A stretch of 64,000 bases of DNA, taken from Bacteroidota bacterium. GTDB taxonomy: Bacteria > Bacteroidota > Ignavibacteria > Kapaibacteriales > UBA2268. This document shows positions 48,729 to 62,697 of this stretch, piece after piece. The first letter of the stretch is position 1; every line of letters begins with the position of its first letter. A program made the position numbers and the translations under genes. The notes beneath the pieces were generated by a model. It ran no database searches and was not told the origin of the DNA. It saw only the letters and a list, made by a program, of their open reading frames with translations. The stretch is taken from positions 1 through 64,000 of the forward strand of contig SCSM01000029.1 in NCBI GenBank assembly GCA_004322215.1, written 5' to 3'.

Positions 48729-49217
48729 ATGAATATACAAGAATTAAATAGATTAATTGAAAAATTTAAAGAAGAACAAATCTGTTGTGACAAAATAATT
48801 GATTATATAAAAAAACAAAAAGACTTAAAAAAAGTAATTGAGTTAGCCGCATTAGCAAGGGATGAAAATGGTATTAAACACAACCATCAGAGACTAATTC
48901 CTGATTTTATTTTAAACAAATTCAAAAAAAGCATACTGAAAGATAACATAATTGAAGAAATCAAGAATGCTAAACATTTTGATAAAATCTATACTATAAT
49001 CGAAGAACATAGAATAAAAGGAATCAGAGAGTTAACGATATATGATATTGCACATAGAATTGGAATATATATAAATAAATTTCCTGATAAGATTTATTTG
49101 CATCGTGGAGCTAGAGTAGGAGCTGAAAAGTTATTAGGAAGAAAAATCAAAGATAAATATATCTTAAGAGAAATTCTTCCTGAATCATTAAAATCAGGTG
49201 ATTTGACTTGTGCTTAA
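48729..49217 (+). CDS. Conserved-looking protein of unknown function
   Basis: A 162-residue, Lys-rich, all-helical protein beginning 22 nt after the previous gene, with AGAGG before the ATG. The segment at about 95-140 (ELTIYDIAHRIGIYINKFPD followed by KIYLHRGARVGAEKLLG) strongly recalls a small bacterial family with the pattern YD-x2-RIG and YLH-x-GARxGA, which I remember only as unnamed. This part has a helix-hairpin-helix-like GARVGAEKLLG, so nucleic-acid binding is possible. The exact function is unknown. Confidence 0.6.
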   Translation: MNIQELNRLIEKFKEEQICCDKIIDYIKKQKDLKKVIELAALARDENGIKHNHQRLIPDFILNKFKKSILKDNIIEEIKNAKHFDKIYTIIEEHRIKGIRELTIYDIAHRIGIYINKFPDKIYLHRGARVGAEKLLGRKIKDKYILREILPESLKSGDLTCA

Positions 49218-49369
49218 ATAGAAGATTTTCTTTGTTGTATAAGAAAGGATTTAAGCTTGTAGCAGAATATTATTTGAAAAATATATCTAATTCGATGGAT
49301 ATAAACGAATATTGGTTCAAGGGAAGAATTACAAAAAGAAGTCAAATAAGTAATAAATATATAAAATAA
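49208..49369 (+). CDS. Possible small ORF or gene remnant after 48729
   Basis: In the 157-nt spacer a frame opened by TTG 49208 reads protein-like: GFKLVAEYYLKNISNSMDIN, then EYWFKGRITKRSQ, ending at TAA 49367-49369. It overlaps the end of the previous gene by 10 nt. There is no ATG with a ribosome site near the beginning. It could be the real C-terminal half of a partner gene or the leftover of one. Weak evidence. Confidence 0.3.
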   Translation: MCLNRRFSLLYKKGFKLVAEYYLKNISNSMDINEYWFKGRITKRSQISNKYIK

Positions 49370-49380
49370 ATAAATTGAGA

Positions 49381-50979
49381 ATGATTGTAGTTAAATTAAT
49401 AGCAAGTCCTATACCAGGATTATGTATCGCAGGTGAAAATAAATTCCTTGGTACCGTACGTCCTAATATGCATAAGGCATCTTTAACAGCACTGTCTGCT
49501 GGCTTGGTCGAAAGATTGGATGAATCAGGAGTTCATTGTGAATTAGAGATAGTCGATATGCAAATCGGAGATGTACAATTTACTAAATATGGGATTTTAG
49601 ATTATGAAAATCTAGTTATTGAAAAACATAGGGTAGGAATACCTTTTGAAAATATAAAATTGAAAATTGTAGAAAGCGATATTATTGGATTAAGTGCTAA
49701 TTTTACACATTCTCGAAAAATAATAACTGACTTAGCAAGTTATTGCAAAGTCATAAAAAAGAATATTATTTTAATAATCGGTGGTGCCGATGCAACTTCA
49801 AATCCGTTGTATTATCTTAAATATGGTGCAGATATAATTGTAAAAGGAGAAGGCGAAATAACATTTCAATTATTAATAGAAAGGATACATTTTAAAAAGG
49901 ACTTTGAAAGTGTTCCCAACATCGTTTATAAATCTAAATCAGGAAAAATAAAAGTCAATCGGATTAATTATCTCAAACAACAATTTAATATCGAGAAAAT
50001 GAATCCTCCTAATCTTGATATTGTGGATTTATCTAAATATACTGATACTGGTGAAGGCAAACCTCCAATTAGTATTACTCCCCCGTTTATAAGTGTAGAA
50101 ACTTCAAGAGGATGTTTTCATTCTTGTTCATTCTGTACTACACCACAAATGAAAGGGCGATATCGATACATGAAAGAAAATAATATAAATAAACATTTTG
50201 AATATTTTAAATCAAAAGGTATAAATACTATTTTGTTTCAAGAAGATAATATACTTTCACGAATATGGAGAAAAAAAAATTCTGATTATTTCTTTAATAA
50301 TGGAAGGAAAGAATTAATCGATATTTTCAAAATTGCTAGAAACATGGAATTTAATTGGGAATTTACGAATGGATTAGAATTAGGTTTATTCGAGAATAAT
50401 GGTATTATCGATGATGAATTAATTCATTATATGTTTTGGAATAAAAAAGATAACAGGAATATCAAAGGTTGTTATAGGGCTTCAATTCCACTAGAAAATC
50501 TTACAAAAAGCAATATATTATTATTTAGAAAACTAAAACCTTTTGATTCTATGAAAACCATTATCAAAATATTATCAGAGCTAAATTTAGAAATGCTTTC
50601 ATTTAATTTAATCATTGGAAGACCTCAAGATGATGAAATAACTCTGAGAAAAACTTTTTTAAAATGTTTAGAAATAAAAGAATTATTTGCTCATTATGGA
50701 AACAATACTCAAATCTATTTTAATATTTATAATTTGGCACTAATTCCTGGAACTATTGATAGTATCAAATTCCAAAATTTACTAGCATTTGATTTAGAGA
50801 AAGATCCCGAAGTTATTACTTTTTATTTAGGTTGTTTAAGAACTGGAAACTTCAGCCCTCTGGAAATAACTCAAGCAAGAGGAACCTTAGTTCAAAAATT
50901 GAATGACAATTCCTTGATAAAAGATTATGATAATACATTTAACTTAACTCATAAAAGATTTTATAATTTATTTAAATAA
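49381..50979 (+). CDS. Radical SAM protein with N-terminal B12-binding-like domain
   Basis: The product is 533 residues from ATG 49381. The N-terminal part, about 1-185, has the Rossmann-like layout of the B12-binding domain common in such enzymes (IIGLSANFTHSRKIITDLAS, IILIIGGADATSNPLYYLKY and GADIIVKGEGEITF). The radical SAM centre is Cys245-x3-Cys249-x2-Cys252 in SRGCFHSCSFCTTP, which would hold a 4Fe-4S cluster. The class includes methyltransferases and other modifying enzymes; the substrate is unknown. It begins the run that continues 5 nt later with an unknown gene and then the liv operon. Confidence 0.88.
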   Translation: MIVVKLIASPIPGLCIAGENKFLGTVRPNMHKASLTALSAGLVERLDESGVHCELEIVDMQIGDVQFTKYGILDYENLVIEKHRVGIPFENIKLKIVESDIIGLSANFTHSRKIITDLASYCKVIKKNIILIIGGADATSNPLYYLKYGADIIVKGEGEITFQLLIERIHFKKDFESVPNIVYKSKSGKIKVNRINYLKQQFNIEKMNPPNLDIVDLSKYTDTGEGKPPISITPPFISVETSRGCFHSCSFCTTPQMKGRYRYMKENNINKHFEYFKSKGINTILFQEDNILSRIWRKKNSDYFFNNGRKELIDIFKIARNMEFNWEFTNGLELGLFENNGIIDDELIHYMFWNKKDNRNIKGCYRASIPLENLTKSNILLFRKLKPFDSMKTIIKILSELNLEMLSFNLIIGRPQDDEITLRKTFLKCLEIKELFAHYGNNTQIYFNIYNLALIPGTIDSIKFQNLLAFDLEKDPEVITFYLGCLRTGNFSPLEITQARGTLVQKLNDNSLIKDYDNTFNLTHKRFYNLFK

Positions 50980-50984
50980 ATAAA

Positions 50985-51806
50985 ATGATAAGAGTTCTTA
51001 TATATCGGTTAATTACTTTTATATTTTCATTTATTGGAAATATTGCTTTCAAAAATTATATAAGGAAAAAAATTATGTGGATTCCTTTTGTTAGAAATTT
51101 TTATTTAGAAAGTATCATTGATAAATGTTTTTGTGAGTCACTTTTTAAGTTGCATAAATGTGCAGTTATTCTAATACCATACGATAAGTATATTGATTTA
51201 TCAATTAGTTTAGCAAATTATACTACAACATATTTAATATGGACAAAACTTGGTTCACCTTTAGATGTAAAAGCAGAAAAATTTATTGAGGATGAATTAA
51301 CAAAAGAAGATATTTGTTTTAGAGACTTAAAGAAGATAACGAAAATAAGAGTTGTAATTTTTAAGAATAAAGAGGAAGTTACTAGTTTCAATGTTAATGA
51401 AACTCATAGAAAAATAAACTTCATTAATTTACATAGGGAAGGAATATTATTGTTTACAACTGTTGATAAAATATGCCATTTATTAGGCATTAACAACTAT
51501 AATCAAATTGATTTTGAATTTGGGTATGTTTTATCAGATCCAACAAAAGATTTAATAAATGGATATATATTCAAAACTGGTTTTAGCACCAATAACAATA
51601 TTTATGATCAACATGTTATTTTTGTACCATATAATTTCCAAATTGATTATAACCGAGTCAAAATAAGTAAGGAATTAAATTATATTTTATATAAAGATAT
51701 TAATTATCAAAAAGAAATAATTAGTGGATTAATAGAACGCCTATCACAACTTAAAGAAAACAATATATTTGTTGATGAAAATAATTTATTAAATCTAATC
51801 ATTTAA
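50985..51806 (+). CDS. Unknown protein with N-terminal membrane segment
   Basis: A 273-residue protein beginning 5 nt after the radical SAM stop. A hydrophobic helix at about 5-22 (VLIYRLITFIFSFIGNIAF) is followed by basic residues, so it is probably membrane-anchored. The rest is mixed alpha/beta (AVILIPYDKYIDLSISLANY, INGYIFKTGFSTNNNIYDQH). No motif is recognised. The close spacing implies co-translation with the radical SAM enzyme, of which it may be a partner or substrate. Very AT-rich compared with livH and livM. Confidence 0.6.
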   Translation: MIRVLIYRLITFIFSFIGNIAFKNYIRKKIMWIPFVRNFYLESIIDKCFCESLFKLHKCAVILIPYDKYIDLSISLANYTTTYLIWTKLGSPLDVKAEKFIEDELTKEDICFRDLKKITKIRVVIFKNKEEVTSFNVNETHRKINFINLHREGILLFTTVDKICHLLGINNYNQIDFEFGYVLSDPTKDLINGYIFKTGFSTNNNIYDQHVIFVPYNFQIDYNRVKISKELNYILYKDINYQKEIISGLIERLSQLKENNIFVDENNLLNLII

Positions 51807-51824
51807 AATAATTAGGAGTATTTA

Positions 51825-52967
51825 ATGAGATATTTAAATTATTTTATCCGCACTGTTTTTGTAATAATTTCAATAATTCTTTTATCATGTACTAAAAGTG
51901 ATGAATTAGAAAAGACAAAAACAATTAAAATTGGTGTAATTCTCCCATTAACAGGAGATATTGCATCGTGGGGCAAAAAAGGTCAAAATGCTATTGAATT
52001 AGCAATCGAAAAAATCAACTCTAACGGGGGTATCAATGGAGTAAGAATTGAAGCTTTATATGAGGATGATAAAGGATCACCACAAGTAGCAGTTAATGCA
52101 GTTAGTAAATTAATTTATACTAATAAAGTTCCAGCAATAGTTGGGGGAATAATTAGCGCAGTTACATTATCTGTAGCTCCTATTGCAGAAAAAAACAAAG
52201 TTATTTTAATCGCTACTACTTCGTCAGCTCCCGCAATTACTTTTGCAGGAGATTATATTTATCGAGTTTGGCCTAGTGATTTATTAGAAGGATCTGCATT
52301 AGGCAAATTTGCTAAGGAAAAAGGTTTTAAAAGAGCTGTTCTATTGCATTTAAATAATGATTATGGAATATCAATTGCAAAAATTTTTAAAAAAAATTTT
52401 GAATCTATTGATTCTAAAATTCTTGCTGATGAAGGTTATCAGGAAACCAATACAGATTACAGGTCTATCTTAACAAAAGCGAAATTACTTAATCCAGATG
52501 TCATTTATACTGCTGGTTATTATGAGGATTGTGCAAGATTAATTAAACAAGCTAGGGAGTTAGGTATCGAAAGCCAATTTTTAGGTGTTACAGCAATAGA
52601 AGATGATAAATATATTCAAATAGCAGGTAGTTCAGCAGAAGGTGTAATATATCCATTAGCAACAGGATTTGATTTAAATTCAAAGGATACAATTATTCAA
52701 AAATTCATTCAAAACTTTAGGAAAAAATATAATTATGATCCCGGTTGGGTTGAATCTCACTGTTATGATGCTTTTATGCTTGTTTATAAGGCATTATGTA
52801 ATTCAAAATATGAAATAACTGGTACAAAGATAAAGAATTATTTAGATAACATGGGGATATACCATGGAGTTACTGGAATTATTAAATTTGATAAAAATGG
52901 TGATGTTATTAAACCTGTAAAATTTAAAACAATACAAAACGGTAAGTTTGAGAATCTTGAAAAATGA
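51825..52967 (+). CDS. livJ: Branched-chain amino acid ABC transporter, substrate-binding lipoprotein (LivJ/LivK-type)
   Basis: A 380-residue periplasmic-binding-protein type I lipoprotein with AGGAG 7 nt before the start. The lipobox ILLSC puts the mature N-terminal Cys near residue 22. The Peripla_BP_6 pattern is clear: KIGVILPLTGDIASWGKKGQ, then IKINSNGGINGVRIEALYED, VPAIVGGIISAVTLSVAPIA and VIYTAGYYEDCARLIKQARE. It captures a ligand, usually branched-chain amino acids but sometimes urea, amides or aromatic acids. Its last codons overlap the livH start by 4 nt (ATGA), the standard coupling. First transport gene of the interrupted operon. Confidence 0.93.
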   Translation: MRYLNYFIRTVFVIISIILLSCTKSDELEKTKTIKIGVILPLTGDIASWGKKGQNAIELAIEKINSNGGINGVRIEALYEDDKGSPQVAVNAVSKLIYTNKVPAIVGGIISAVTLSVAPIAEKNKVILIATTSSAPAITFAGDYIYRVWPSDLLEGSALGKFAKEKGFKRAVLLHLNNDYGISIAKIFKKNFESIDSKILADEGYQETNTDYRSILTKAKLLNPDVIYTAGYYEDCARLIKQARELGIESQFLGVTAIEDDKYIQIAGSSAEGVIYPLATGFDLNSKDTIIQKFIQNFRKKYNYDPGWVESHCYDAFMLVYKALCNSKYEITGTKIKNYLDNMGIYHGVTGIIKFDKNGDVIKPVKFKTIQNGKFENLEK

Positions 52968-53839
52968 TACAATTATTAGTAAATAGCGTTATTACCTTTG
53001 GTTTAATTATTATTGTAACCATATCATTCTCTTTTATCTACAAGGTAACGAAGTTTTTCCATTTTGCCCATGCAGTCGTATTCACAAGCGGGGCGTATTT
53101 CACTTTTCTGTTTAAAGTCTGGTTGGGTTTTCCTTTATTTATTGCTATTCCATTAGCTGTAGCTTGCAGTACGATTCTTGGCTGTGCTATGGATTTAACG
53201 GTTTACAGGACATTGAGAAAAAGGAAAGCTACATCACTTGTACTTCTTTTAGCATCTCTTGGTTTAAATGTCGTAATACAAAATGTAATTTCAATGGTGT
53301 TAGGCGATGATACAAAATCAATTAGAACAGGTGATGTTCAAGTAGGTATAGAGATATTCGGAGCATATATAACACCAACACAAATCGGAATCATTATAAC
53401 AAGTATCGTATTGGTTATATTAACTGCAATATTTCTCAAATATGCAAAATTCGGCAAAGCAATGAGAGCAGTATCTAACAACCCGGAGCTTGCTTTAATC
53501 TCAGGTATAGACAGCGAGAGAACTATACTTTATACTTTTGCTCTTGGTTCTGCATTAGCTGGGATTGCCGGAATCCTTGTAGCTCTCGATGTGGATATGA
53601 CCCCAACAATGGGAATGAATGCTTTAATGATGGGTGTAGTGGCAATGATTATCGGAGGTGTGAATAGTATTACTGGAATTGTTTTTGGTTCGCTTTTGCT
53701 TGCACTTGCACAAAATTTTGGAGTATGGAAAATTAGCTCGCAGTGGCAAGATGCAATAGCATTTATCATTTTGTTCTTATTTTTATTAATTAAACCTGAA
53801 GGTTTCTTAGGTAAGAAAATAAAAAAGGTATCAGTCTAA
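52964..53839 (+). CDS. livH: Branched-chain amino acid ABC transporter permease LivH
   Basis: A 291-residue inner-membrane permease of usual family length with about eight hydrophobic helices. It shows the LivH signatures FFHFAHAVVFTSGAYFTF near residue 32, GKAMRAVSNNPELALISGID near 168 and GMNALMMGVVAMIIGGVNSI near 220. With LivM it forms the translocation channel. Overlap of 4 nt with livJ shows coupled translation. In typical operons livM follows directly, but here a membrane protein gene of another kind intervenes. Its DNA is clearly richer in G+C than the inserted genes. Confidence 0.94.
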   Translation: MIQLLVNSVITFGLIIIVTISFSFIYKVTKFFHFAHAVVFTSGAYFTFLFKVWLGFPLFIAIPLAVACSTILGCAMDLTVYRTLRKRKATSLVLLLASLGLNVVIQNVISMVLGDDTKSIRTGDVQVGIEIFGAYITPTQIGIIITSIVLVILTAIFLKYAKFGKAMRAVSNNPELALISGIDSERTILYTFALGSALAGIAGILVALDVDMTPTMGMNALMMGVVAMIIGGVNSITGIVFGSLLLALAQNFGVWKISSQWQDAIAFIILFLFLLIKPEGFLGKKIKKVSV

Positions 53840-53880
53840 AAATATTTGGATTCTTTTAAAACAAATCATTAAGGATTTTT

Positions 53881-54459
53881 ATGTCTTGGGAAATGATAGC
53901 AGCACTAGCAAATTTAATTATCGCAATATTAGCAATTTTAAGTTATATACGAACTCGTAAAGAAAAAATTATTCTTGAAATTAAAATAGGAAAATTTGAA
54001 TCTATTATAAAAGAATTTATCTTATCTGGAAAGGTTAATAGCACAGATATTAATGAAGAATTAATGACAAAAGATATAAAAAAATTATTTGAAAATGAAA
54101 ATATTAAAATATCTGTAATAGATTTTTTATCAGATCATTATATTAAAGGTATCGTAGAAGGATTACTCGAAAAGGAATTAAAAAAATATAAAATTGTTGT
54201 TTATGTTTTAACTAATAAGTGGTATATTCATCCTGAAGCTGTTAACACTGAAGGTTTTGGTTATGCAAATATTAGGATAGATGGAACTTGGAAAATAAAA
54301 ACTAAATGGAGAACTTTTCAAGCATATAAGGTAGCATTTTGTTTAGTTAAAAAAAGTTTTATTCCACCAGCAACTGTTGAAGGGGACAGCGATTATGAAT
54401 TGATACAAAGAATCAATCCAATTAGTTACACAATTAATATTGCTCCGGAAGGCATTTAA
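53881..54459 (+). CDS. Unknown membrane-anchored protein inserted between livH and livM
   Basis: A 192-residue protein. Residues 5-22 form one transmembrane helix (MIAALANLIIAILAILSYI), followed by a charged cytosolic-type part. About 100-190 form a compact mixed domain with KIVVYVLTNKWYIHPEAVNT and GYANIRIDGTWKIKTKWRTF. I do not know the family. It sits 41 nt after livH and 8 nt before livM, so it must be transcribed with them. Nothing in it suggests transport, and it is much richer in A+T than its two neighbours. Probably an acquired gene. Confidence 0.65.
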   Translation: MSWEMIAALANLIIAILAILSYIRTRKEKIILEIKIGKFESIIKEFILSGKVNSTDINEELMTKDIKKLFENENIKISVIDFLSDHYIKGIVEGLLEKELKKYKIVVYVLTNKWYIHPEAVNTEGFGYANIRIDGTWKIKTKWRTFQAYKVAFCLVKKSFIPPATVEGDSDYELIQRINPISYTINIAPEGI

Positions 54460-54467
54460 ATCATTTT

Positions 54468-55340
54468 ATGGAATACATACTTCACATATTAATTCTTATA
54501 GGTATATACATCATTTTAACGATGTCATTAAATCTTCTTGCAGGTTACACCGGCATTCTTTCGATTGCTCATGCAGCTTTTTACGGATTAGGTGCCTATG
54601 TTGCGGCTCTGATGGCTTTGCAAGTCCATACTCCATTTTTGGTGAATCTGGTATTGGCAATAGTTGCTGCTACGGTTTTGGGTGCTTTTATAGGAATTCC
54701 AACGTTGCGAATTAAAGACGATTATTTCGTTATTGCTACTTTTGCTTTCCAGGTTATTACTTTCAGCGTTTTAAATAACTGGGTATCATTTACAGGTGGT
54801 CCAATGGGACTTCCGGGAATACCACAACCTAATATCCTTGGTTTGTCAATAACTGAGCATTACCAATTCCTAATTTTAGTGGTTGTTCTTTGTGCAGTAA
54901 CATTTTTTATATGTGTAAGGGTTGTGAAATCGCCTTTTGGCAGAGTGCTGAAAGCTATACGAGAAGATGAAATCCTTGCACAATCTTTAGGAAAAAATGT
55001 TTCATTGTTCAAAGTAAAAGTATTTATGCTCTCTGCAGGACTTGCTTCTATATCAGGTGTTCTTTATGCAACATTTATAACATATATTGACCCGACAAGC
55101 TTTACTGTTATGGAGTCAATATTTATCATTTCAATTGTTATAATCGGAGGAACAGGTAATTTGTGGGGTTCAGTCTTAGGTGCGGTAGTGTTGGTTTCGT
55201 TACCTGAGTTATTAAGATTTGTTGGATTGCCAAGCTCCATTGCAGCTAATATTAGGCAGATACTTTATGGAGTAATGCTCGTTATTTTTATGATTTGGAG
55301 ACCCCAAGGATTTATCGGTGAATTTTCATTTAGAAAATAA
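54468..55340 (+). CDS. livM: Branched-chain amino acid ABC transporter permease LivM
   Basis: A 290-residue inner-membrane permease with eight or so hydrophobic helices. The LivM family signs are NLLAGYTGILSIAHAAFYGL near residue 22, TLRIKDDYFVIATFAFQVIT near 79, PFGRVLKAIREDEILAQSLG near 155 and IIIGGTGNLWGSVLGAVVLV near 224. It ends RPQGFIGEFSFRK as expected. It pairs with LivH to form the channel. The start lies 8 nt after the inserted unknown gene. It is shorter than the E. coli protein, which has a longer N-terminus, but is normal for the shorter family members. Confidence 0.94.
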   Translation: MEYILHILILIGIYIILTMSLNLLAGYTGILSIAHAAFYGLGAYVAALMALQVHTPFLVNLVLAIVAATVLGAFIGIPTLRIKDDYFVIATFAFQVITFSVLNNWVSFTGGPMGLPGIPQPNILGLSITEHYQFLILVVVLCAVTFFICVRVVKSPFGRVLKAIREDEILAQSLGKNVSLFKVKVFMLSAGLASISGVLYATFITYIDPTSFTVMESIFIISIVIIGGTGNLWGSVLGAVVLVSLPELLRFVGLPSSIAANIRQILYGVMLVIFMIWRPQGFIGEFSFRK

Positions 55341-55360
55341 TAATAATTGGAGGTTTAATT

Positions 55361-55945
55361 ATGGATTTTAATCAATATTTAACAATTGGAGCAACGATAA
55401 TCGCTATTCTAATAGGAATTATTGATTTATTAATCAAATGGAAACAAGGTAAGACTATATTAGGTGAAAAAAGGATAATTGTATATTCTATAATATTTCT
55501 AATAATTGGATTTTGTTCAGGTTATTTTTACGGAAGAAATCAAGAGTATAAAATTAAACAACCTTATGTAGAGAAAAATAACCACTTATATACTTACATT
55601 AACCACTTACGTTCTTATATTGACAACATACATTCTTACATTAAATTATTTAATAATGAAATAGGTGAAGTTATTATTCAAAGAAAATTTCATAATTATG
55701 CTGTTGTATATACTGAAACTAATTTTGAAGGTAACAGACTTATTCTTTTCCCTAAAGAGAGTTATTCTAATCTTCATCAATATGGCTTCGGTGATAAAAT
55801 TCAAAGTATTAAAATCATTGGGAATGTAAAATTGTACTTTTACCAAGATGCTGACTTCCAAAAGTATCTTAATACAATAAGTACAAGCGTTTCAGATTTA
55901 CGAAAATCATCAAATAAAATTTCTTCAATAAAATTTGATAATTAA
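55361..55945 (+). CDS. Membrane-anchored beta-gamma-crystallin-like protein between livM and livG
   Basis: A 194-residue protein preceded by TTGGAGG. Two transmembrane helices lie at about 5-22 and 42-64 (IIVYSIIFLIIGFCSGYFYG). The C-terminal half shows two Greek-key motifs of the beta-gamma-crystallin type: AVVYTETNFEGNRLILFP to GFGDKIQSIKI, and KLYFYQDADFQ to SSNKISSIKF. Such domains often bind calcium through an N/D-N/D-x-x-S/T-S motif; here the second copy (SNKISS) is close to it. It ends in TAATG overlapping the livG start by one nucleotide, so its translation is coupled to the transporter ATPase. Function within the operon unknown. Confidence 0.75.
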   Translation: MDFNQYLTIGATIIAILIGIIDLLIKWKQGKTILGEKRIIVYSIIFLIIGFCSGYFYGRNQEYKIKQPYVEKNNHLYTYINHLRSYIDNIHSYIKLFNNEIGEVIIQRKFHNYAVVYTETNFEGNRLILFPKESYSNLHQYGFGDKIQSIKIIGNVKLYFYQDADFQKYLNTISTSVSDLRKSSNKISSIKFDN

Positions 55946-56709
55946 TGCAAGGAAATAAAAATATATTATTAGTAAATAATCTAAAGAAAAGGTTTGATGG
56001 AATTATTGCTCTCGATAATTTTTCCTGTAATGTCAACCAATCTGAAATATTAGGATTAATTGGTCCCAATGGTGCTGGTAAGACTACGCTGTTTAATGCT
56101 ATCACTGGATTTGCTAATACTGAAACAGGAACTATATATTTTAAAACAAAGAAACTCACAAAAAGAATACCGTATAATATCTTTGCTCTTGGAATAGCAA
56201 GAACATTTCAAGACTTAAGATTAATCAGACAAATGACTGTGCTGGACAATGTTTTACTATCCTTTAAGAGACAAGCAGGTGAAAGTTTGTGGAATATATT
56301 TTTTAGAAATTCTAAAACGAAAAGAGTTGAGGCAAAGAATATCAAAAAAGCAGTGTTGTTATTAGAGTATGCTGGTCTTACCGATAAAAAAGATGATTTG
56401 GCTAATGACCTGTCTTATGGACAACAGAAACTTCTAAGCATTATTTGTTGTCTTGCATCAGATGCCGAACTACTGCTGTTGGACGAGCCTGTAGCCGGAA
56501 TTAATCCTGAGAAGATTAAGAAAATTCTTTCAATCATTCTTGAACAAAAGAAAAAAGGAAAAACAATAGTATTAATTGAACACAACATGGATGTAGTTAT
56601 GGATATATGTGATAGAGTAGTTTTTATGGATGCTGGTCAAAAGATTTGTGAGGGCAGTCCTGAGACTGTGAGAAATAATCCGGAAGTTATACAGGCGTAT
56701 TTGGAATAA
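55945..56709 (+). CDS. livG: Branched-chain amino acid ABC transporter ATPase LivG
   Basis: A 254-residue cytosolic ATPase. Walker A is GPNGAGKTT at about residues 38-46, the Q loop is in FANTETG/ARTFQDLRL, the signature is LSYGQQKLL and Walker B is LLLLDEPVAGINP; the switch His is in VLIEHNMDVVM. The C-terminal extension MDAGQKICEGSPETVRNNPE is the LivG type that helps contact the permease. It drives uptake by LivH/LivM together with LivF. LivF normally follows directly, but two non-transport genes intervene here. Confidence 0.95.
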   Translation: MQGNKNILLVNNLKKRFDGIIALDNFSCNVNQSEILGLIGPNGAGKTTLFNAITGFANTETGTIYFKTKKLTKRIPYNIFALGIARTFQDLRLIRQMTVLDNVLLSFKRQAGESLWNIFFRNSKTKRVEAKNIKKAVLLLEYAGLTDKKDDLANDLSYGQQKLLSIICCLASDAELLLLDEPVAGINPEKIKKILSIILEQKKKGKTIVLIEHNMDVVMDICDRVVFMDAGQKICEGSPETVRNNPEVIQAYLE

Positions 56710-56743
56710 TTTAAAGTATGACGAATAAAATATAGGTTAAGTA

Positions 56744-57952
56744 ATGAATAGAACTGCATCAGACTCATTAAAAGGATATTTATATCAGTTTAATAAAACA
56801 CTTATATCAGTACTTGAAAGTACTCATAATGCTGAAATTATATGTGAAGGAATTATAGAAGACATTGATATTATGGAAATTAATAAAACTACAGCAATTC
56901 AGTGTAAATATTATGAATCTCAAAAAGTTTTTCACTTATCATTATTTAATAAGGCTATATTACTCATGTTACTTCATCACTTACACAATGCTTCACAAAA
57001 TATCAAATATATTTTATTCTCATTTTTCCCAAATGAAGAAAATGATTCTGTTAGAAAAATAACACAGATTGAAATAGTAGAAATATTAAAATCTAAAAAT
57101 AAAGAAATCAAAGATTTGATAGAAAAAATAAAAAAATATAAAAATGGGTATAAAAATTTTATCAATAATTTTCACATCGAGTTTGGTGATTCTCTAGATA
57201 ATTTAATTGGGAGTGTAAAAAGAAAATTAATAGAAAATGGACTGAACAAGAATGACATTGAAGAACTGTCCTATCCCAATGCAATTCAAATAATAGCTAA
57301 TAAAAGTTCAAAAAAGAGCATTAATGATAGAAAAATTACAAAGTTTCAATTATTAGAAGACTTAAAGAGAATCAGAAGCACTGCTATATCGAAATGGACA
57401 AAAGAGTTAAAAAATTATCATTCATTATTGAAAGCTAGAAAAAAACAATTAAACGCAAATTTACGACTTAACCGCAGGCTGAGATGTTTTATTATTGATG
57501 AGATAACAATAGAAAACTTTATTGATGAAATTATTGTTTTTATAAAAGATTACGTTTATAAATATAATTCAAAACCTTATTTGCAACTACCATCAATTTT
57601 TTGTCTTGATTGTTCACAACAAAATTTTGATGATATTAGAATTAGATTATCAAAATTAAATATAAAATTTTGCGATGGATTAATCACTGACAATTACTTC
57701 GATGAACAAGTATTTTTTAAAGACCCAATTGTTGCTGGTACGAAACATAATCCGATGGTTGAATTCACTATAAGAGTAATGCAAATTCGTAATTCAAATT
57801 TTATAAATTCACATAAACCCGATGATTTATTTATTATAAGTGAAAAAGAGTATTCTGAAATTGAAAAGAAAGATATTAACTCAGAAATGATTGATACAAA
57901 CAAGATAAATGAAATAAAATATTTATTAAATCTAAGGGACACATATGAATAA
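56744..57952 (+). CDS. DUF4297/Cap4-like nuclease-type protein, partner of the HerA ATPase
   Basis: A 402-residue protein whose N-terminal part has the DUF4297-type pattern: GYLYQFNKTLISVLE near residue 11, then Glu35, EDIDI at 39-43 and the Q-x-K core (AIQCKYY, Gln53 and Lys55). Together these fit a PD-(D/E)xK restriction-like nuclease fold. The remainder is helical and very Lys-rich. DUF4297 nucleases paired with HerA ATPases are known anti-phage systems. Its end overlaps the HerA-like gene by 8 nt, as expected for a pair acting in one complex. I read the family by eye; the catalytic residue set is not proven. Inserted between livG and livF. Confidence 0.65.
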   Translation: MNRTASDSLKGYLYQFNKTLISVLESTHNAEIICEGIIEDIDIMEINKTTAIQCKYYESQKVFHLSLFNKAILLMLLHHLHNASQNIKYILFSFFPNEENDSVRKITQIEIVEILKSKNKEIKDLIEKIKKYKNGYKNFINNFHIEFGDSLDNLIGSVKRKLIENGLNKNDIEELSYPNAIQIIANKSSKKSINDRKITKFQLLEDLKRIRSTAISKWTKELKNYHSLLKARKKQLNANLRLNRRLRCFIIDEITIENFIDEIIVFIKDYVYKYNSKPYLQLPSIFCLDCSQQNFDDIRIRLSKLNIKFCDGLITDNYFDEQVFFKDPIVAGTKHNPMVEFTIRVMQIRNSNFINSHKPDDLFIISEKEYSEIEKKDINSEMIDTNKINEIKYLLNLRDTYE

Positions 57953-59720
57953 TCAACCTAATAAAATTGGCATTGTCATTGACAGTTCTCCGAATAACAT
58001 TATTGTCGAAATAAATTCTCAAGAAATATTTGAGGAGAACAAAAATGATTTACAAATTGGAAAATATTTAAAAATAGCTTGTGGAAATTTGGATTTTATT
58101 ATTACAAGTATTAAAAATTTAAGAGCTACTGAAATAATAAATAATGAAAACAAGCCATTATTTAAATTTATTATTAATTCCTTTCCTATTGGTTCATTAA
58201 TCGAGGGTAAAAAATTTGATAAAGGTAATATTTCATTACCGGTACCAACAGAACCTGTATTTATCATTGATAGTGAATCGTTGAAAATAATTTTTTCTTC
58301 ATCTGAGGGTTTTAATTTTCCGATGGGGCACTTAGTCCAAAATAAAAGTCAAGAGTTAAAAATCGCTGGTAATAATTTCTTTAGCAAACATATTGCAGTT
58401 GTAGGAACAACAGGTTCAGGAAAATCTTGCACTGTCGCTAAAATTATTCAAGAAGCTGTTGGAATAAATAATGGCATAAACACTAATAAAGCATTCCAAA
58501 AAAATTCTCATATTATAATTTTAGATTTGCACTCAGAGTATAAATCAGCATTTAGCTTAGATCAAAAACAAGAATTTTCACTTAATGTCCTTGAGGTAGG
58601 TAATCTTAAACTCCCATATTGGTTAATGAATGCTGAAGAATTGGAAACGATGTTTATTGAAAGCAATGAAAGCAATTCACATAATCAAATATCTCAATTT
58701 CGAAGAGCAGTAATTCTAAATAAGGGGTATCATAACGAAGAGATAAGGGATAAAGTAACTTATGATACTCCAATATATTTTAGCATAAAAGAAGTTTTTA
58801 GATATATATATAATCTAAACATTTCAACAAAAGATGCTAAGACAGGAGAGCTTAAAATTAAAATTAAGGACAGTAATTTTCCTGATATAATCGAATATCA
58901 GCTTTTTGGTGATATTGAATTTGAAGAAAAGCAAACTGCAAAAATTAATAATGGTCAATTTGCAGGTGAGTTTGATAGATTTGTATTAAGATTTGATACT
59001 AAGATTAATGATAAAAGATTGAGTTTTATTTTAGATCCACAAAAACAAGATGGTTCATATTATAAAACAGATGATTTTGAAAAAATCATGAAACAGTTTA
59101 TTGGATATTTGAATAAAGCTAATATTTCAATTATTGATTTAAGCGGAGTTCCACATGAAGTATTGAATATCACCGTCAGTTTAATATCACGATTAATATT
59201 TGATTTTTGCTTTCATTATTCAAGGATAAGAAATAAAAATTATGATTTAAATGACATTCCATTTATGATTGTTTGTGAAGAAGCCCATAATTATATACCA
59301 AGAAGCCAGGAATCAAAGTATAAATCTTCTAAAGAAGCAGTAGAAAGAATCGCAAAAGAAGGTAGAAAATATGGGCTCAGTTTGATGATTGTAAGTCAAA
59401 GACCATCTGAAGTATCTGAAACTATTTTTTCACAATGCAATAACTTTATAACATTGAGATTGTCTAATAGTAATGATCAATCTTATGTTAAAAGTTTAAT
59501 CCCAGAAACAACAAGTGGAATAATAGATAACTTGCCTAATCTTTCCCTTGGTGAATTTATTATTATGGGAGATGCATCATTGTTCCCTTGTATTGTTTAT
59601 TTAGAAAAACCAAATCCTGAACCATCATCTCAAAGTGTAAAAGTATATGATGAGTGGAAAGAAGATTGGAAAACACCTGCTTTTGATGAAATAATAAAAC
59701 ATTGGAAAAAAGAAATTTAA
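57945..59720 (+). CDS. HerA/DUF87-type hexameric ATPase
   Basis: A 591-residue protein. An N-terminal HAS-barrel-like part (1-130) precedes Walker A at residues 154-161 (GTTGSGKS, in HIAVVGTTGSGKSCTVAKII). A strand ends in IILDLHSEYKSAF. The Walker B-type segment is FMIVCEEAHNYIP with Glu445/Glu446. The sensor region QRPSEVSETIFSQCNNFITL and SNSNDQSYVKS is typical of HerA. HerA-type rings move along DNA. Genes of this type are known both in DNA repair (with NurA) and in anti-phage systems (with DUF4297 or SIR2 proteins). The upstream overlapping nuclease favours the second use. livF follows 15 nt later. Confidence 0.85.
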   Translation: MNNQPNKIGIVIDSSPNNIIVEINSQEIFEENKNDLQIGKYLKIACGNLDFIITSIKNLRATEIINNENKPLFKFIINSFPIGSLIEGKKFDKGNISLPVPTEPVFIIDSESLKIIFSSSEGFNFPMGHLVQNKSQELKIAGNNFFSKHIAVVGTTGSGKSCTVAKIIQEAVGINNGINTNKAFQKNSHIIILDLHSEYKSAFSLDQKQEFSLNVLEVGNLKLPYWLMNAEELETMFIESNESNSHNQISQFRRAVILNKGYHNEEIRDKVTYDTPIYFSIKEVFRYIYNLNISTKDAKTGELKIKIKDSNFPDIIEYQLFGDIEFEEKQTAKINNGQFAGEFDRFVLRFDTKINDKRLSFILDPQKQDGSYYKTDDFEKIMKQFIGYLNKANISIIDLSGVPHEVLNITVSLISRLIFDFCFHYSRIRNKNYDLNDIPFMIVCEEAHNYIPRSQESKYKSSKEAVERIAKEGRKYGLSLMIVSQRPSEVSETIFSQCNNFITLRLSNSNDQSYVKSLIPETTSGIIDNLPNLSLGEFIIMGDASLFPCIVYLEKPNPEPSSQSVKVYDEWKEDWKTPAFDEIIKHWKKEI

Positions 59721-59735
59721 CATACAGGTTTTTTT

Positions 59736-60437
59736 ATGCTCATACTCAAATCCATCTCTACCGGTTACGCTAAAAAGCAGGTTCTGTATGAACTGAGTTT
59801 GGATGTTGGTAAAGGTGAAATTGTTGCTTTGATTGGTCCTAATGGTTCCGGGAAATCAACGATTTTGAAATCTATTATCGGGTTGCTGAAAGTTTGGGAT
59901 GGTGATATTGTTTTCAATAAACGTTCAATAAAGAATAATTCTACACATAAAAATATCGGTTTGGGTATTAGCTATTGCCCGCAGGGTAAACAAATTTTCG
60001 ATGAATTGAGCGTAAAAGAAAATTTGGAAATTAGTGGATTCACTATGCCAAAACAACAATTCAAAAGCAAGCTGGACGAGATTTATCATTTCTTTCCAAC
60101 CTTACAAATAAGAAATAACAAATTAGCAGGACAATTGAGCGGAGGAGAGCAGCAGATGCTTGCATTAGCTCGTGCATTAATTCCTAATCCGAAATTACTT
60201 TTATTGGATGAGCCATCACTTGGGCTGGCTCCAAATTTGGTGAGTATGGTTTTTGAAAAAATCTTACAAATAAGGAATGAATCAAAGATGACAATTTTGA
60301 TAGTCGAACAAAAGGTCAAAGAGGTACTCAAATTATGTGATAAAGTGTATGGTATAAAAATGGGAAGTGTGTTTTTTGAGGATGCACCACAAAATCTCGT
60401 TAATGATAAGGAGAGATTGAAGGGTTTGTTCTTGTAG
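59736..60437 (+). CDS. livF: Branched-chain amino acid ABC transporter ATPase LivF
   Basis: A 233-residue cytosolic ATPase, full family length. Walker A is GPNGSGKS near residue 35, the signature LSGGEQQMLALARAL near 135 and Walker B LLLLDEPSLGLAPNL near 158; the switch region is ILIVEQKVKEVLKLC. It joins LivG in powering the uptake system. The gene follows the HerA-like gene by 15 nt and therefore lies at the end of the same transcript. Its base composition returns to that of the transporter genes. Confidence 0.95.
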   Translation: MLILKSISTGYAKKQVLYELSLDVGKGEIVALIGPNGSGKSTILKSIIGLLKVWDGDIVFNKRSIKNNSTHKNIGLGISYCPQGKQIFDELSVKENLEISGFTMPKQQFKSKLDEIYHFFPTLQIRNNKLAGQLSGGEQQMLALARALIPNPKLLLLDEPSLGLAPNLVSMVFEKILQIRNESKMTILIVEQKVKEVLKLCDKVYGIKMGSVFFEDAPQNLVNDKERLKGLFL

Positions 60438-60486
60438 AAAATACTGTTTAAAAATACTAAGAATTTGACATTATTAAAATAATTCG

Positions 60487-60522
60487 ATTTACATTTATGT
60501 AAATGTGCTTTACAGGAATATA
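60487..60522 (+). promoter_or_regulatory. Palindromic element copy E (one centre mismatch)
   Basis: ATTTACATTTATGTAAAT at 60487-60504 deviates from the perfect palindrome only in the centre; 10 nt later GGAATATA stands at 60515-60522. It lies 50 nt after livF and starts the second copy of the intergenic module. Confidence 0.6.
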
Positions 60523-60795
60523 ATCTAAAAAATTGATAGAATTATAAAATAAAAATTTAATACCTAATATAGAGGTATTATAAAAACAGTTTGAACAAGA
60601 AATAAATTGTTTATTATTAGAATATTGAAATCCCTGGAACAAAGACCTAATCACAATAGTCGAAGTTATACCTCAATCAGAAGGAAAATAGATTTAAAAA
60701 ATATTTTCAATTTTGAAAATTACATTTGGAAATATTCCCCTTTTTTTGTAATTATAAATTAGTAATATTTCTTTGTATTGTAATATAAAATTGAC

Positions 60796-60831
60796 GTTTA
60801 CACATATGTAAATGTCCTCAATAGAAATATT
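60796..60831 (+). promoter_or_regulatory. Palindromic element copy F
   Basis: GTTTACACATATGTAAAT at 60796-60813, then 10 nt, then GAAATATT at 60824-60831, a diverged form. The gene at 60919 starts 87 nt later, a distance similar to that for copy D and the gene at 27040. Confidence 0.55.
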
Positions 60832-60918
60832 AAAGGTAAATTTTGGAAATTGAATTTTTTGATAAAGGAATATAATTTATTTCTATATATTTATAAAGAA
60901 AATTTCTAGGAGGATATT

Positions 60919-62697
60919 ATGAAAAAAATTCTCTTAATCAGTTTTTCATTCCTTTTTATTATTACAGTATTTCGCAAAACATTTTCACAAGAAATCATTT
61001 TTAATAATGCTGGTATTCATGAACCATCATCAATAAAGGTAACTTCTGACGATTATTTCATTTTTTGTGGATTTAGTAAATACTATTCAATAGGTAAACA
61101 AGTTGGGTGGATTGTCAAATTAAAAAACAATGTGAAGGATACTATTTTTAATAGAAATTATGAAAGTTATTCAAAATGTACTCTGAATTATATAATTGAG
61201 ACTAAGGACGGCAACTATCTTGCGGTAGGTGCAGATTCAGCAAAAGGCGGATTTATTATTAAAATTAAGAAGGACGGAGATACTGTTTTCAGTAAATATT
61301 ATGATTGGAGTGGTAGTGAATTAAAATATATTTATGAGACAAAAGAGGGTAATTTTATTGCTGCCGGTATCAAATATAATCCAAATGGGAATCGAGGATG
61401 GATTTTGAAATTGAATTCATCATTTGATACTATATTAATTGATACTTCTTATTCAGATACCTACTCATTTATTTATGTTCGAGAACTAAATGATACTGGT
61501 GATTCAATTATAGCTATTGGCACTGTTAATGGTAGTGGTCAGGATATAGGTATAAAAACAATAGATAAAAATGGGAATGTTCTTTTTAAGAAAGCTTATG
61601 GAGATAATTTAGCACAAATAGCAAATTCTGCTGTTTTTACTTCCGATAGTAATTATATAATAACTGGTCGAACTGAAAGGGATACCTTAATAAATAATAA
61701 TACAAGAAGGAAAAATTTTGTACTATTATTAAAATTGAATAACAACTATAATTCAATTTGGCAAAAATATTATGGCTATGCGGCAAAGGAAAATGATAAT
61801 TTATATGCACAAGGTTATACACAAGGAAATTGCATCATTGAAACCTCAGATAGAAATTATTTAATTGCCGGACAATTGATGATGAATTTTGATGGACACA
61901 ATGGTTTCTATATGGATGCTGTGCTTTTAAAGATTGATACATCTGGAAATGTAAAAAAACAAATTAATTGGCTTGGTCCCGGTTCTCTTCATGAACTTGG
62001 AAAATGTGTAGCAGAAAATCAATGTTATTATGTTGTTGCTTCCTTTATTAACGAAACTATGTGGTGGGATCAACGACAACAAGGAAGAACTTGGATATTC
62101 TCTGTTGGGAAAGATAGTTTAGACCAAATAAAACTTTCAGTAATTTCACCAAATGGAAGTGAAAAATGGAAAGCCGGTGAATCGGTCCTAATTAAATGGG
62201 ACACAGGGAATACTATTGATATTAAATGTTTAAAAATTCAATTTTCTTCAAATTCCGGCAAGGATTGGATTACTATCAAAGATATTATTTCTCCTACAGA
62301 TTCATCATTTGAATGGATAGTTCAGGAGATTAATAGTGATAGTTGTTTAGTTCGTATATCTGAATGTAATAATTGTGTTTCTGATATAAGTGACTCTATA
62401 TTCACAACTCCGGTTATTGATGAAATACAAAAAAAAGAGAACAATATTACTATTACTCCAAATCCATTGAACAATACATCAGAAATTAAATATACAATAG
62501 AAAGGTCATCAAGAGTTACTCTTTCCATTTCAGATAATCTTGGAATTGAAGTAAAACGACTAATTGATAATTTTTATTTTGAGCAAGGTACTAGTAATAT
62601 TTCGTTTGATGCAAGTGATTTATCTTCTGGAGTTTATTTCTGTACATTAAAAGCAGATGATTACATTAAAACTATCAAATTTGTTGTAATTAAATAA
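60919..62697 (+). CDS. T9SS-exported delta-60/propeller-like protein with Ser/Thr-rich-type domain
   Basis: A 592-residue protein preceded by TAGGAGG. It has a signal peptide (MKKILLISFSFLFIITVFRK) and five or six repeats with patterns such as GNYLAVGADSAKGGFIIKIK, GNFIAAGIKYNPNGNRGWIL and NYLIAGQLMMNFDG, typical of delta-60-like propellers. About 415-495 form a sandwich domain (VISPNGSEKWKAGESVLIKW, then SSNSGKDW) as in the proteins at 32280 and 36774. A T9SS tail begins ITPNPLNNTSEIKYTI and ends KFVVIK. It is preceded by the duplicated module, so its expression may be linked with that of 27040. Confidence 0.82.
   Translation: MKKILLISFSFLFIITVFRKTFSQEIIFNNAGIHEPSSIKVTSDDYFIFCGFSKYYSIGKQVGWIVKLKNNVKDTIFNRNYESYSKCTLNYIIETKDGNYLAVGADSAKGGFIIKIKKDGDTVFSKYYDWSGSELKYIYETKEGNFIAAGIKYNPNGNRGWILKLNSSFDTILIDTSYSDTYSFIYVRELNDTGDSIIAIGTVNGSGQDIGIKTIDKNGNVLFKKAYGDNLAQIANSAVFTSDSNYIITGRTERDTLINNNTRRKNFVLLLKLNNNYNSIWQKYYGYAAKENDNLYAQGYTQGNCIIETSDRNYLIAGQLMMNFDGHNGFYMDAVLLKIDTSGNVKKQINWLGPGSLHELGKCVAENQCYYVVASFINETMWWDQRQQGRTWIFSVGKDSLDQIKLSVISPNGSEKWKAGESVLIKWDTGNTIDIKCLKIQFSSNSGKDWITIKDIISPTDSSFEWIVQEINSDSCLVRISECNNCVSDISDSIFTTPVIDEIQKKENNITITPNPLNNTSEIKYTIERSSRVTLSISDNLGIEVKRLIDNFYFEQGTSNISFDASDLSSGVYFCTLKADDYIKTIKFVVIK

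Follow-up and report, generated by a model that had tools for sequence, protein, structure and literature searches.

A divergent DUF4297–HerA pair, probably an autonomous passenger, within a hypervariable LIV-type transporter operon

Introduction

Anti-phage and toxin–antitoxin (TA) genes gather in defence islands, and TA genes also occur as inserts within operons; in Bacillus, the comQXPA pherotypes show that receptor and enzyme loci can be exchanged as cassettes. Here we consider a pair of genes, for a DUF4297 nuclease and a HerA ATPase/translocase, which lies between two genes of a LIV/HAAT-type (livKHMGF) transporter operon in a 64,000-nt stretch of DNA from a Bacteroidota bacterium (positions 1 to 64,000 of contig SCSM01000029.1, assembly GCA_004322215.1; hereafter, the window). 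It is quite likely, in our assessment, that the pair is an intact anti-phage system that rides as an autonomous passenger in a hypervariable, horizontally spread LIV-type operon. The novelty lies in this setting, in which defence and TA genes are threaded through a transporter operon with an exchanged cassette, and not in the pair, which taken alone is one more divergent, intact DUF4297–HerA.

In described DUF4297–HerA homologues, a double-stranded DNA (dsDNA) nuclease is switched on by assembly and protects against phage (PMC11291478 and PMC12198126); a homologous pair protected E. coli upon heterologous expression (PMC11291478), and the octadecameric, assembly-activated complex is reviewed in PMC12198126. 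The window copy shares with this system the two overlapping genes, the gene order, near full-length matches, the catalytic residues and an intact Walker A motif, but differs in its diverged sequence and in sitting inside a LIV transporter operon. That operon, in turn, has all five LIV/HAAT subunits intact, but is interrupted at three core junctions and is accompanied by a radical S-adenosylmethionine (radical SAM) gene and other genes. As in defence islands, defence and TA genes pile up in a mobile region; in the family of operons studied here, however, they are found one by one or a few at a time among the genes of one conserved operon, not side by side. As in comQXPA, a receptor and enzyme block is swapped wholesale between conserved flanks (in two relatives of the window operon, L082 and L083, rather than in the window); here, however, the role of receptor falls to a LIV-type binding protein, it is an importer that is conserved, and no signal molecule is known.

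Identity of the pair

The first gene (56744..57952, + strand) encodes a DUF4297 PD-(D/E)XK nuclease of 402 amino acids (aa; P0001), and the second (57945..59720, + strand) a HerA protein of 591 aa. Their open reading frames (ORFs) overlap by 8 nt, the nuclease gene starts 34 nt past the end of livG (56709), and the HerA gene ends 15 nt ahead of the start of livF (59736). An earlier, sequence-only reading of this DNA had proposed just such an overlap between livG and livF, and both the ORF coordinates and the LIV ATPase matches of the flanking genes bear it out.

The same reading had likened the pair to established anti-phage systems, and the profile and structure databases agree. The PADLOC model PDLC02187 (DUF4297) matches the nuclease at E = 1.9e-34 over residues 1–394, and PDLC02188, the accession next to it, matches HerA at 9.4e-164. 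Among the NCBIfam models, DUF4297_antiphage (NF042945) matches the first protein over nearly its full length (5.3e-45; 154 bits, below the cut-off of 300) and HerA_antiphage_2 (NF042944) the second over positions 3–576 of 576 (1.8e-181; 605 bits, below the cut-off of 850). In a PDB sequence search, the best solved relatives of both proteins are DUF4297–HerA complexes (9c1m, 8ziq and 8xav), with the nuclease matching 9c1m at 2.1e-68 and 8ziq at 3.3e-61 over residues 1–401, the C-terminal domain included, and HerA matching 9c1m_M at 8.2e-208 over residues 7–590. The strength of the DUF4297 and HerA matches is far beyond chance. A profile comparison with DUF4297/Cap4, suggested earlier as a check, gave a divided answer: PADLOC recovers DUF4297, whereas the nuclease has no above-threshold match in Pfam, where only Mrr_cat_2 (E = 0.48) and an unrelated model (E = 0.13) appear, so that Pfam alone would miss this nuclease.

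The proposed E...ED...QxK core could likewise be located, as E35, E39–D40 and Q53–C54–K55, which are invariant in all seven aligned DUF4297 proteins; in HerA, the Walker A motif (G154, G157–S161, with K160 as its lysine) and EEAH (E445–H448) are invariant in eight aligned sequences, in keeping with the HerA motif set that had been read there. In PMC11291478, a triple mutant of DUF4297 (D40A/Q53A/K55A) and the HerA mutant K157A were tested; D40, Q53 and K55 carry the same numbering in the window nuclease. Identity to the three closest plasmid copies that were aligned is 38–42% for the nuclease and 54–59% for HerA. Judged by sequence, the pair is an intact, divergent DUF4297–HerA, a new member of a known anti-phage system.

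Occurrence of the pair elsewhere

Outside the window, the pair is sporadic. DUF4297 matches occur in three of 247 genomes of the phylum (the window's own genome, G075 at 2.1e-23, and a doubtful match in G103 at 8.9e-4); HerA was matched in five of 60 relatives including the own genome, and among the others only G013 aligned near full length. On plasmids, DUF4297 matches are present on 15 of 72,556 records, and in all five plasmid regions that were opened the DUF4297 gene is followed by a gene for an ATP-binding protein, with an overlap of 8–14 nt in four of the five. Four of these regions have genes for an N-6 DNA methylase, DNA repair exonucleases, helicases or an AbiE pair nearby; in the fifth, from a Pantoea plasmid, the neighbours are unremarkable. 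Going by a plasmid gene table that is itself incomplete, no annotated liv gene stands near the pair in any of the five regions. In G075, moreover, the pair (locus L048) lies on one contig and L045, a liv operon of the window's family, on another; together with the plasmid copies that have no annotated liv neighbour, this indicates that the pair is not tied to the transporter. A viral origin was considered and set aside: P0001 drew 26 pattern stretches but no relative from IMG/VR, and it has no match among 50,697 phage records.

Inserts at the backbone junctions

Within the window, the pair belongs to a co-directional run of 11 genes (49375–60437; rSAM, x273, livK, livH, orfA, livM, orfB, livG, DUF4297, HerA, livF) with a spacing of −8 to 41 nt. 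The sequence-only reading had left out four members of this run, namely orfA between livH and livM (53881..54459, + strand, 192 aa), orfB between livM and livG (55361..55945, + strand, 194 aa), and the upstream rSAM and x273. With inserts at the livH–livM (H–M), livM–livG (M–G) and livG–livF (G–F) junctions alike, the window operon is broken up at three core junctions rather than at a single one.

To place this operon among its relatives, we assembled 89 loci, comprising the window, 10 of 12 stretches from genomes of the phylum, and 78 of the 80 best LivM loci (of 295); three loci were removed ahead of the counts, L077 and L111 as duplicates (of L039 and L042, respectively) and L048 for want of liv genes. 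Six of the 89 have the canonical gene order and are included in the junction counts. As controls we used 39 LIV loci from the same genomes or the phylum, 37 of which have a testable core junction. ORFs of at least 60 aa were called by a simple script, so that some of the short inserts may be artefacts, and a number of liv genes come out broken or are missed.

Same-strand inserts are found in the family at 24 of 69 H–M, 5 of 49 M–G, 7 of 65 G–F and 40 of 51 livK–livH (K–H) junctions, compared with 1 of 32, 0 of 31, 0 of 31 and 4 of 22, respectively, in the control loci. Pooling the three core junctions gives 36/183 versus 1/94 (Fisher test, 1.3e-6; this and the other Fisher, correlation and permutation tests ignore relatedness), and the H–M junction gives 2.4e-4 by itself. 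Counted by locus, a core-junction insert is present in 28 of 77 non-canonical loci (window included), in contrast to one of 37 controls and none of five canonical-order loci (jointly 1/42, 8e-6); the remaining 49 of the 77 have none.

The inserts are rich in TA and defence families. We scanned a set (A2) of 57 proteins, made up of 55 of the 61 junction and H–H insert ORFs (six short ones omitted) plus two AbiE proteins from the K–H slot of L040. Pfam assigns them to AbiEii (5), 23S rRNA IVP (5), PDDEXK_3 (4), HicA (3), HicB-like (3), AbiEi_2 (3), ParE (2) and nucleotidyltransferase (2) families, with HEPN, HigB, RhuM, YhcG and DUF87 once each; the DUF87 protein is the window's HerA. At least 33 of the 57 are thus of TA, defence, IVP or PDDEXK_3 type, a figure that sums the Pfam members and the window's DUF4297 on the assumption of no double counting, and that falls to 24 without IVP and PDDEXK_3, whose roles are ambiguous. 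Taken singly, ten M–G and G–F inserts comprise PDDEXK_3 proteins (L052, L113), MNT with HEPN (L059), HigB with a helix–turn–helix partner (L063), HicB-like with HicA (L098), an aspartyl protease (L125) and one protein without a family (L064). A further ten ORFs, mainly unassigned H–M inserts, yielded five of TA or defence type (AbiEi_2 with AbiEii in L051, RhuM in L100, YhcG in L113 and a nucleotidyltransferase in L058), one ordinary methyltransferase (L069), three without a match and one doubtful case. Given inserts of this kind across the junctions, a DUF4297–HerA pair at G–F fits a general pattern.

Filled and empty versions of the same site can be seen in sister loci, where MNT–HEPN is present in L059 and absent in L067, and PDDEXK_3 is present in L096 and absent in L102. 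Base composition also sets the inserts apart: in all 28 loci tested, junction inserts of at least 90 aa have a lower GC content at third codon positions (GC3) than the backbone. For the window operon, the values are 0.26–0.35 in livH, livM, livG and livF versus 0.14–0.18 in rSAM, x273, livK, orfA (0.135), orfB (0.164), the DUF4297 gene (0.176) and the HerA gene (0.174).

Some inserts in the family have repeats at their edges. Inverted repeats of at least 11 nt flank 7 of 38 insert-bearing core junctions versus 1.6% of shuffled pairings (binomial, 2.5e-6), namely those of L096 (4390–4890), L058 (H–M), L039, L052, L053, L112 and L113; the repeat is 36 nt long in L058 and 18 nt in L096, where one arm overlaps the end of livH. 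At livK-side sites such repeats flank 0 of 48, with about one expected. Flanking inverted repeats at the core junctions may possibly reflect a distinct insertion mechanism. The MNT–HEPN insert of L059 (7537–7600) opens with a short tandem repeat (AAGGACACAAAGGACACAAAG) just past the livM stop.

Exchange of the livK cassette

A second kind of variability concerns the binding protein. Identity between livK proteins follows that between livM proteins in ordinary LIV operons (r = 0.98 over 496 control pairs, a value raised in itself by the close kinship of some control loci), whereas in the window's family the correlation is 0.13 over 1,378 pairs (0.10 without the canonical loci), so that the binding protein is evolutionarily uncoupled from the permease. 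Among pairs with livM at least 80% identical, the median livK identity is 88% in the controls (56 pairs) compared with 29%, and a maximum of 45%, in the family (41 pairs). The window livK aligns with LIV-type binding proteins, and S111 is kept in 55 of 57 family livK.

At L082 and L083, flanks of 94–95% identical DNA enclose livK and the two genes after it, over which no DNA match is found, and the two livK proteins are 33% identical; these two loci have an H–M gene in common though their livK cassettes differ. The same replacement of the livK cassette is found between L051 and L064, which have an AbiE passenger in common. Wholesale replacement of livK and adjoining genes with LivM 89–99% identical was noted in three groups, L082/L083, L051/L064 and L046/L047/L049. 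Where two loci share a livK-side gene family, their residual livK identity is 5 points higher, a difference matched by none of 5,000 permutations. GC3 of livK is below the backbone in 55 of 58 family loci versus 23 of 33 controls (median −0.112 versus −0.023, p = 4e-8), and that of livK-side genes in 45 of 47 loci. These comparisons suggest that livK and its adjoining enzymes are exchanged as a cassette in the family.

The content of the cassettes was surveyed in a set (A3) of 117 proteins, comprising 115 of 128 livK-side ORFs (the two AbiE and eleven of 61–179 aa omitted) plus two window genes. Pfam finds radical SAM in 26, B12-binding in 8, Methyltransf_25 in 7 and polyprenyl_synt in 6. Ten livK-side proteins taken singly gave GGDEF, sigma-54 AAA, SDR, ThsB-like TIR and caspase once each, and five without a match. 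We considered viperin as an identity for the cassette radical SAM proteins and rejected it: 12 of the 117 match pVip models at 1e-6 or better, but 7–14 match further families of the kind, MoaA, PqqE, NirJ and the W-cofactor maturase among them, and given matches to so many radical SAM families we read those to pVip as cross-matching within the superfamily.

In L040 (284–1634), a ThsB-like TIR protein and a caspase-domain protein lie directly upstream of livK. Six livK-side proteins of 320–361 aa, related to one another, recur as a cluster in the K–H slot of L054, L060, L068, L085, L090 and L092; they probably account for the six polyprenyl_synt matches, which recall the ComQ-type prenylation of signals, polyprenyl_synt being the Pfam family that holds ComQ.

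Spread of the operon family

Among the best 80 of the 295 LivM loci, the window LivM is at most 78% identical to proteins of bins named Aminicenantes, Cloacimonadota, Desulfobacterales, Planctomycetota and others, where the phylum labels are the submitters' titles of metagenome bins and may include stray contigs. On a LivM tree, the 19 named phyla need 30 label changes, against a minimum of 18 and a shuffled mean of 44.6; the family is therefore clustered by phylum, yet, apart from any errors of binning, it has moved more often than vertical descent would require. The backbone LivM has a signature, YIDPTSFT near SIVIIGG. We also rejected vertical inheritance of the window operon, since only one of 60 relatives, the own genome, has a livG match that reaches 1e-60. 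Diverged members do occur nearby: G012, from the same family as the window genome, has an operon of this kind with LivM at 52%, so that the operon family is not wholly foreign to the lineage. When ordinary LIV transporters are included, LivM matches at 1e-30 are found in 41 of the 247 phylum genomes. On these sequence comparisons, the operon family appears to have spread horizontally across phyla. A search of open-access PMC literature found no description of the operon family or its inserts in titles or the openings of abstracts, weak evidence of absence given that subscription papers lie outside that search.

Weighing the explanations

We envisage the operon family as three layers: a conserved backbone of livH, livM, livG and livF; an exchangeable cassette of livK and enzymes; and TA or defence passengers at the junctions. 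The DUF4297–HerA pair would have arrived at G–F by insertion and would act independently of transport. By analogy with its homologues, HerA and DUF4297 would assemble into one large complex, assembly would turn on a dsDNA nuclease that does not single out phage DNA, and the degradation of DNA would kill the cell. Expression would most likely be from the operon transcript: the short gaps between genes and the absence of any + strand terminator-like site in 49000–61000 make co-transcription plausible. Promoter-like sites in the window number 76, versus 79.6 in shuffles, and with no excess over the shuffled level a promoter of the pair's own is neither claimed nor excluded. Passengers probably settle at junctions because they would be freely expressed between co-directional genes without loss of the operon, and because the operon is itself mobile.

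Several points weigh against this autonomous-passenger reading. The NCBIfam scores of both proteins fall under the curated cut-offs. A DUF4297–HerA pair in a liv-operon setting occurs only once among the 89 family loci, and the excess of inserts at its own junction is not significant by itself (G–F alone, p = 0.058), nor is that at M–G (p = 0.079). The nearest operon has a LivM at 78% and no near-identical operon without the pair was found, so that the insertion event itself is unseen; nor do flanking inverted or direct repeats of at least 11 nt mark the inserts in the window. (Imperfect AT-rich repeats were considered as an insertion mark and rejected; they are numerous and look like chance.) The TA and defence character of the inserts, finally, could mean recruitment rather than hitch-hiking.

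In the sequence-only reading, this placement would tie defence to the expression of nutrient uptake. The many unrelated TA and defence inserts, the copies elsewhere with no annotated liv gene nearby and a GC3 of the pair that differs from that of the permease and ATPase genes all speak against this claim. On a rival reading, transporter and defence would cooperate, with ligand import or the loss of transport (for example, through phage damage to the membrane) triggering assembly of DUF4297–HerA. We consider this unlikely, and equally so its extension to AbiE, HicAB, HEPN and others as interchangeable effectors in sister operons. Tight gene spacing, the TA- and defence-rich inserts at backbone junctions, and the signal- or immunity-like livK-side domains (GGDEF, sigma-54 AAA, ThsB-like TIR, caspase) count in its favour. 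Against it stand the 49 of 77 non-canonical loci without a core-junction insert; passengers and livK cassettes also assort independently, as the AbiE passenger of L051/L064 and the H–M gene of L082/L083 illustrate. The pair is moreover found without an annotated liv neighbour, and its homologue protected E. coli in a heterologous setting (PMC11291478).

Still less probable is that the pair serves as an addiction or stabilisation module, punishing loss of a mobile operon rather than mainly fighting phage. Such a role would suit an operon that appears to have moved across phyla and several junction inserts that are TA families, but DUF4297–HerA has no known antitoxin, and there is no known mechanism that would make loss of the pair toxic. 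Its homologues are instead activated by assembly, with anti-phage activity shown (PMC11291478 and PMC12198126).

A HerA with a nuclease partner could also act in DNA end resection and repair, as in the HerA–NurA type, and the HerA core is indeed common to repair HerA proteins (NF040937, 1e-36; NF040819, 2.2e-33). Here, however, the anti-phage HerA model scores far above these repair models, the best PDB matches of HerA are DUF4297–HerA complexes, the partner is DUF4297, P0001 has no NurA match in Pfam, PADLOC or NCBIfam, and the pair has the sporadic distribution described above (three of 247 phylum genomes, one at just 8.9e-4); a repair role is accordingly very improbable. That a misassembly joined the pair to the liv operon is less credible still, for although the window comes from a draft assembly in 47 contigs, the reading frames are intact and the spacing tight on both sides, comparable inserts are present in 28 of 77 separate loci (window included), and three core junctions of the window operon are occupied.

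Beyond the passenger reading of the pair, the operon may, more tentatively, represent a cross-phylum class of exchangeable import or signalling systems with swappable private cassettes, whose junctions recruit TA and defence genes. The cassettes in question consist of the binding protein with radical SAM, methyltransferase, prenyl-synthase-like, GGDEF, TIR or caspase proteins. It is conceivable, at a similarly tentative level, that in this class immunity moves along with a private ligand/receptor system, DUF4297–HerA being expressed with the operon. An importer found in many phyla exchanges its binding protein and adjoining genes while its permease stays up to 99% identical. If this holds, the inserts of the operon family would offer a genomic route to new defence and TA genes; one could test whether importer ligand specificity evolves through cassette exchange; and the family would be a candidate private-signal or private-nutrient system, testable by matching binding proteins with cassette products.

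Other genes of the window operon

The five LIV subunits livK, livH, livM, livG and livF are all present and intact in the window, and all genes of the run are on the + strand. livK (51825..52967) encodes a LIV-type substrate-binding protein (Peripla_BP_6, 7.5e-65; PDB matches to LIV-type binding proteins; GC3 0.144). The backbone permeases are livH (52964..53839; BPD_transp_2, 4.7e-38; GC3 0.281) and livM (54468..55340; BPD_transp_2, 1.6e-49; GC3 0.271), and the backbone ABC ATPases are livG (55945..56709; LivG model at 1.2e-70, below its curated cut-off; GC3 0.255) and livF, the last gene of the run (59736..60437; UrtE 1.8e-63 and LivF 1.1e-62, below their cut-offs; GC3 0.350). Among four genomes of the genus, the own one alone has the 876-aa gene that lies upstream.

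The run opens with a B12-binding/radical SAM gene (49375..50979; GC3 0.176), whose best NCBIfam match is TIGR04013 (3e-20, below cut-off), followed by x273 (50985..51806; GC3 0.150), which has no Pfam match and adjoins livK. The closest livK proteins to that of the window are those of L098 (57%) and L047 (55%), while the livM proteins of these loci are only 51% and 49% identical; relatives of x273 adjoin livK in both L047 (27% identity) and L098. The window rSAM and x273 probably act as members of a livK specificity cassette.

Neither orfA nor orfB has a reliable family in Pfam, PADLOC or NCBIfam. By eye, orfA has one N-terminal hydrophobic stretch and orfB several. Of the 60 genomes, one besides the own matches orfA (G003) and one matches orfB, the latter over just 29 residues (8.5e-4). 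The G003 relative, from the same genus and a genome without a livG match at 1e-60, is 44% identical over 128 residues. For orfB, we also noted a weak beta/gamma-crystallin match (Crystall, 2e-4, below cut-off).

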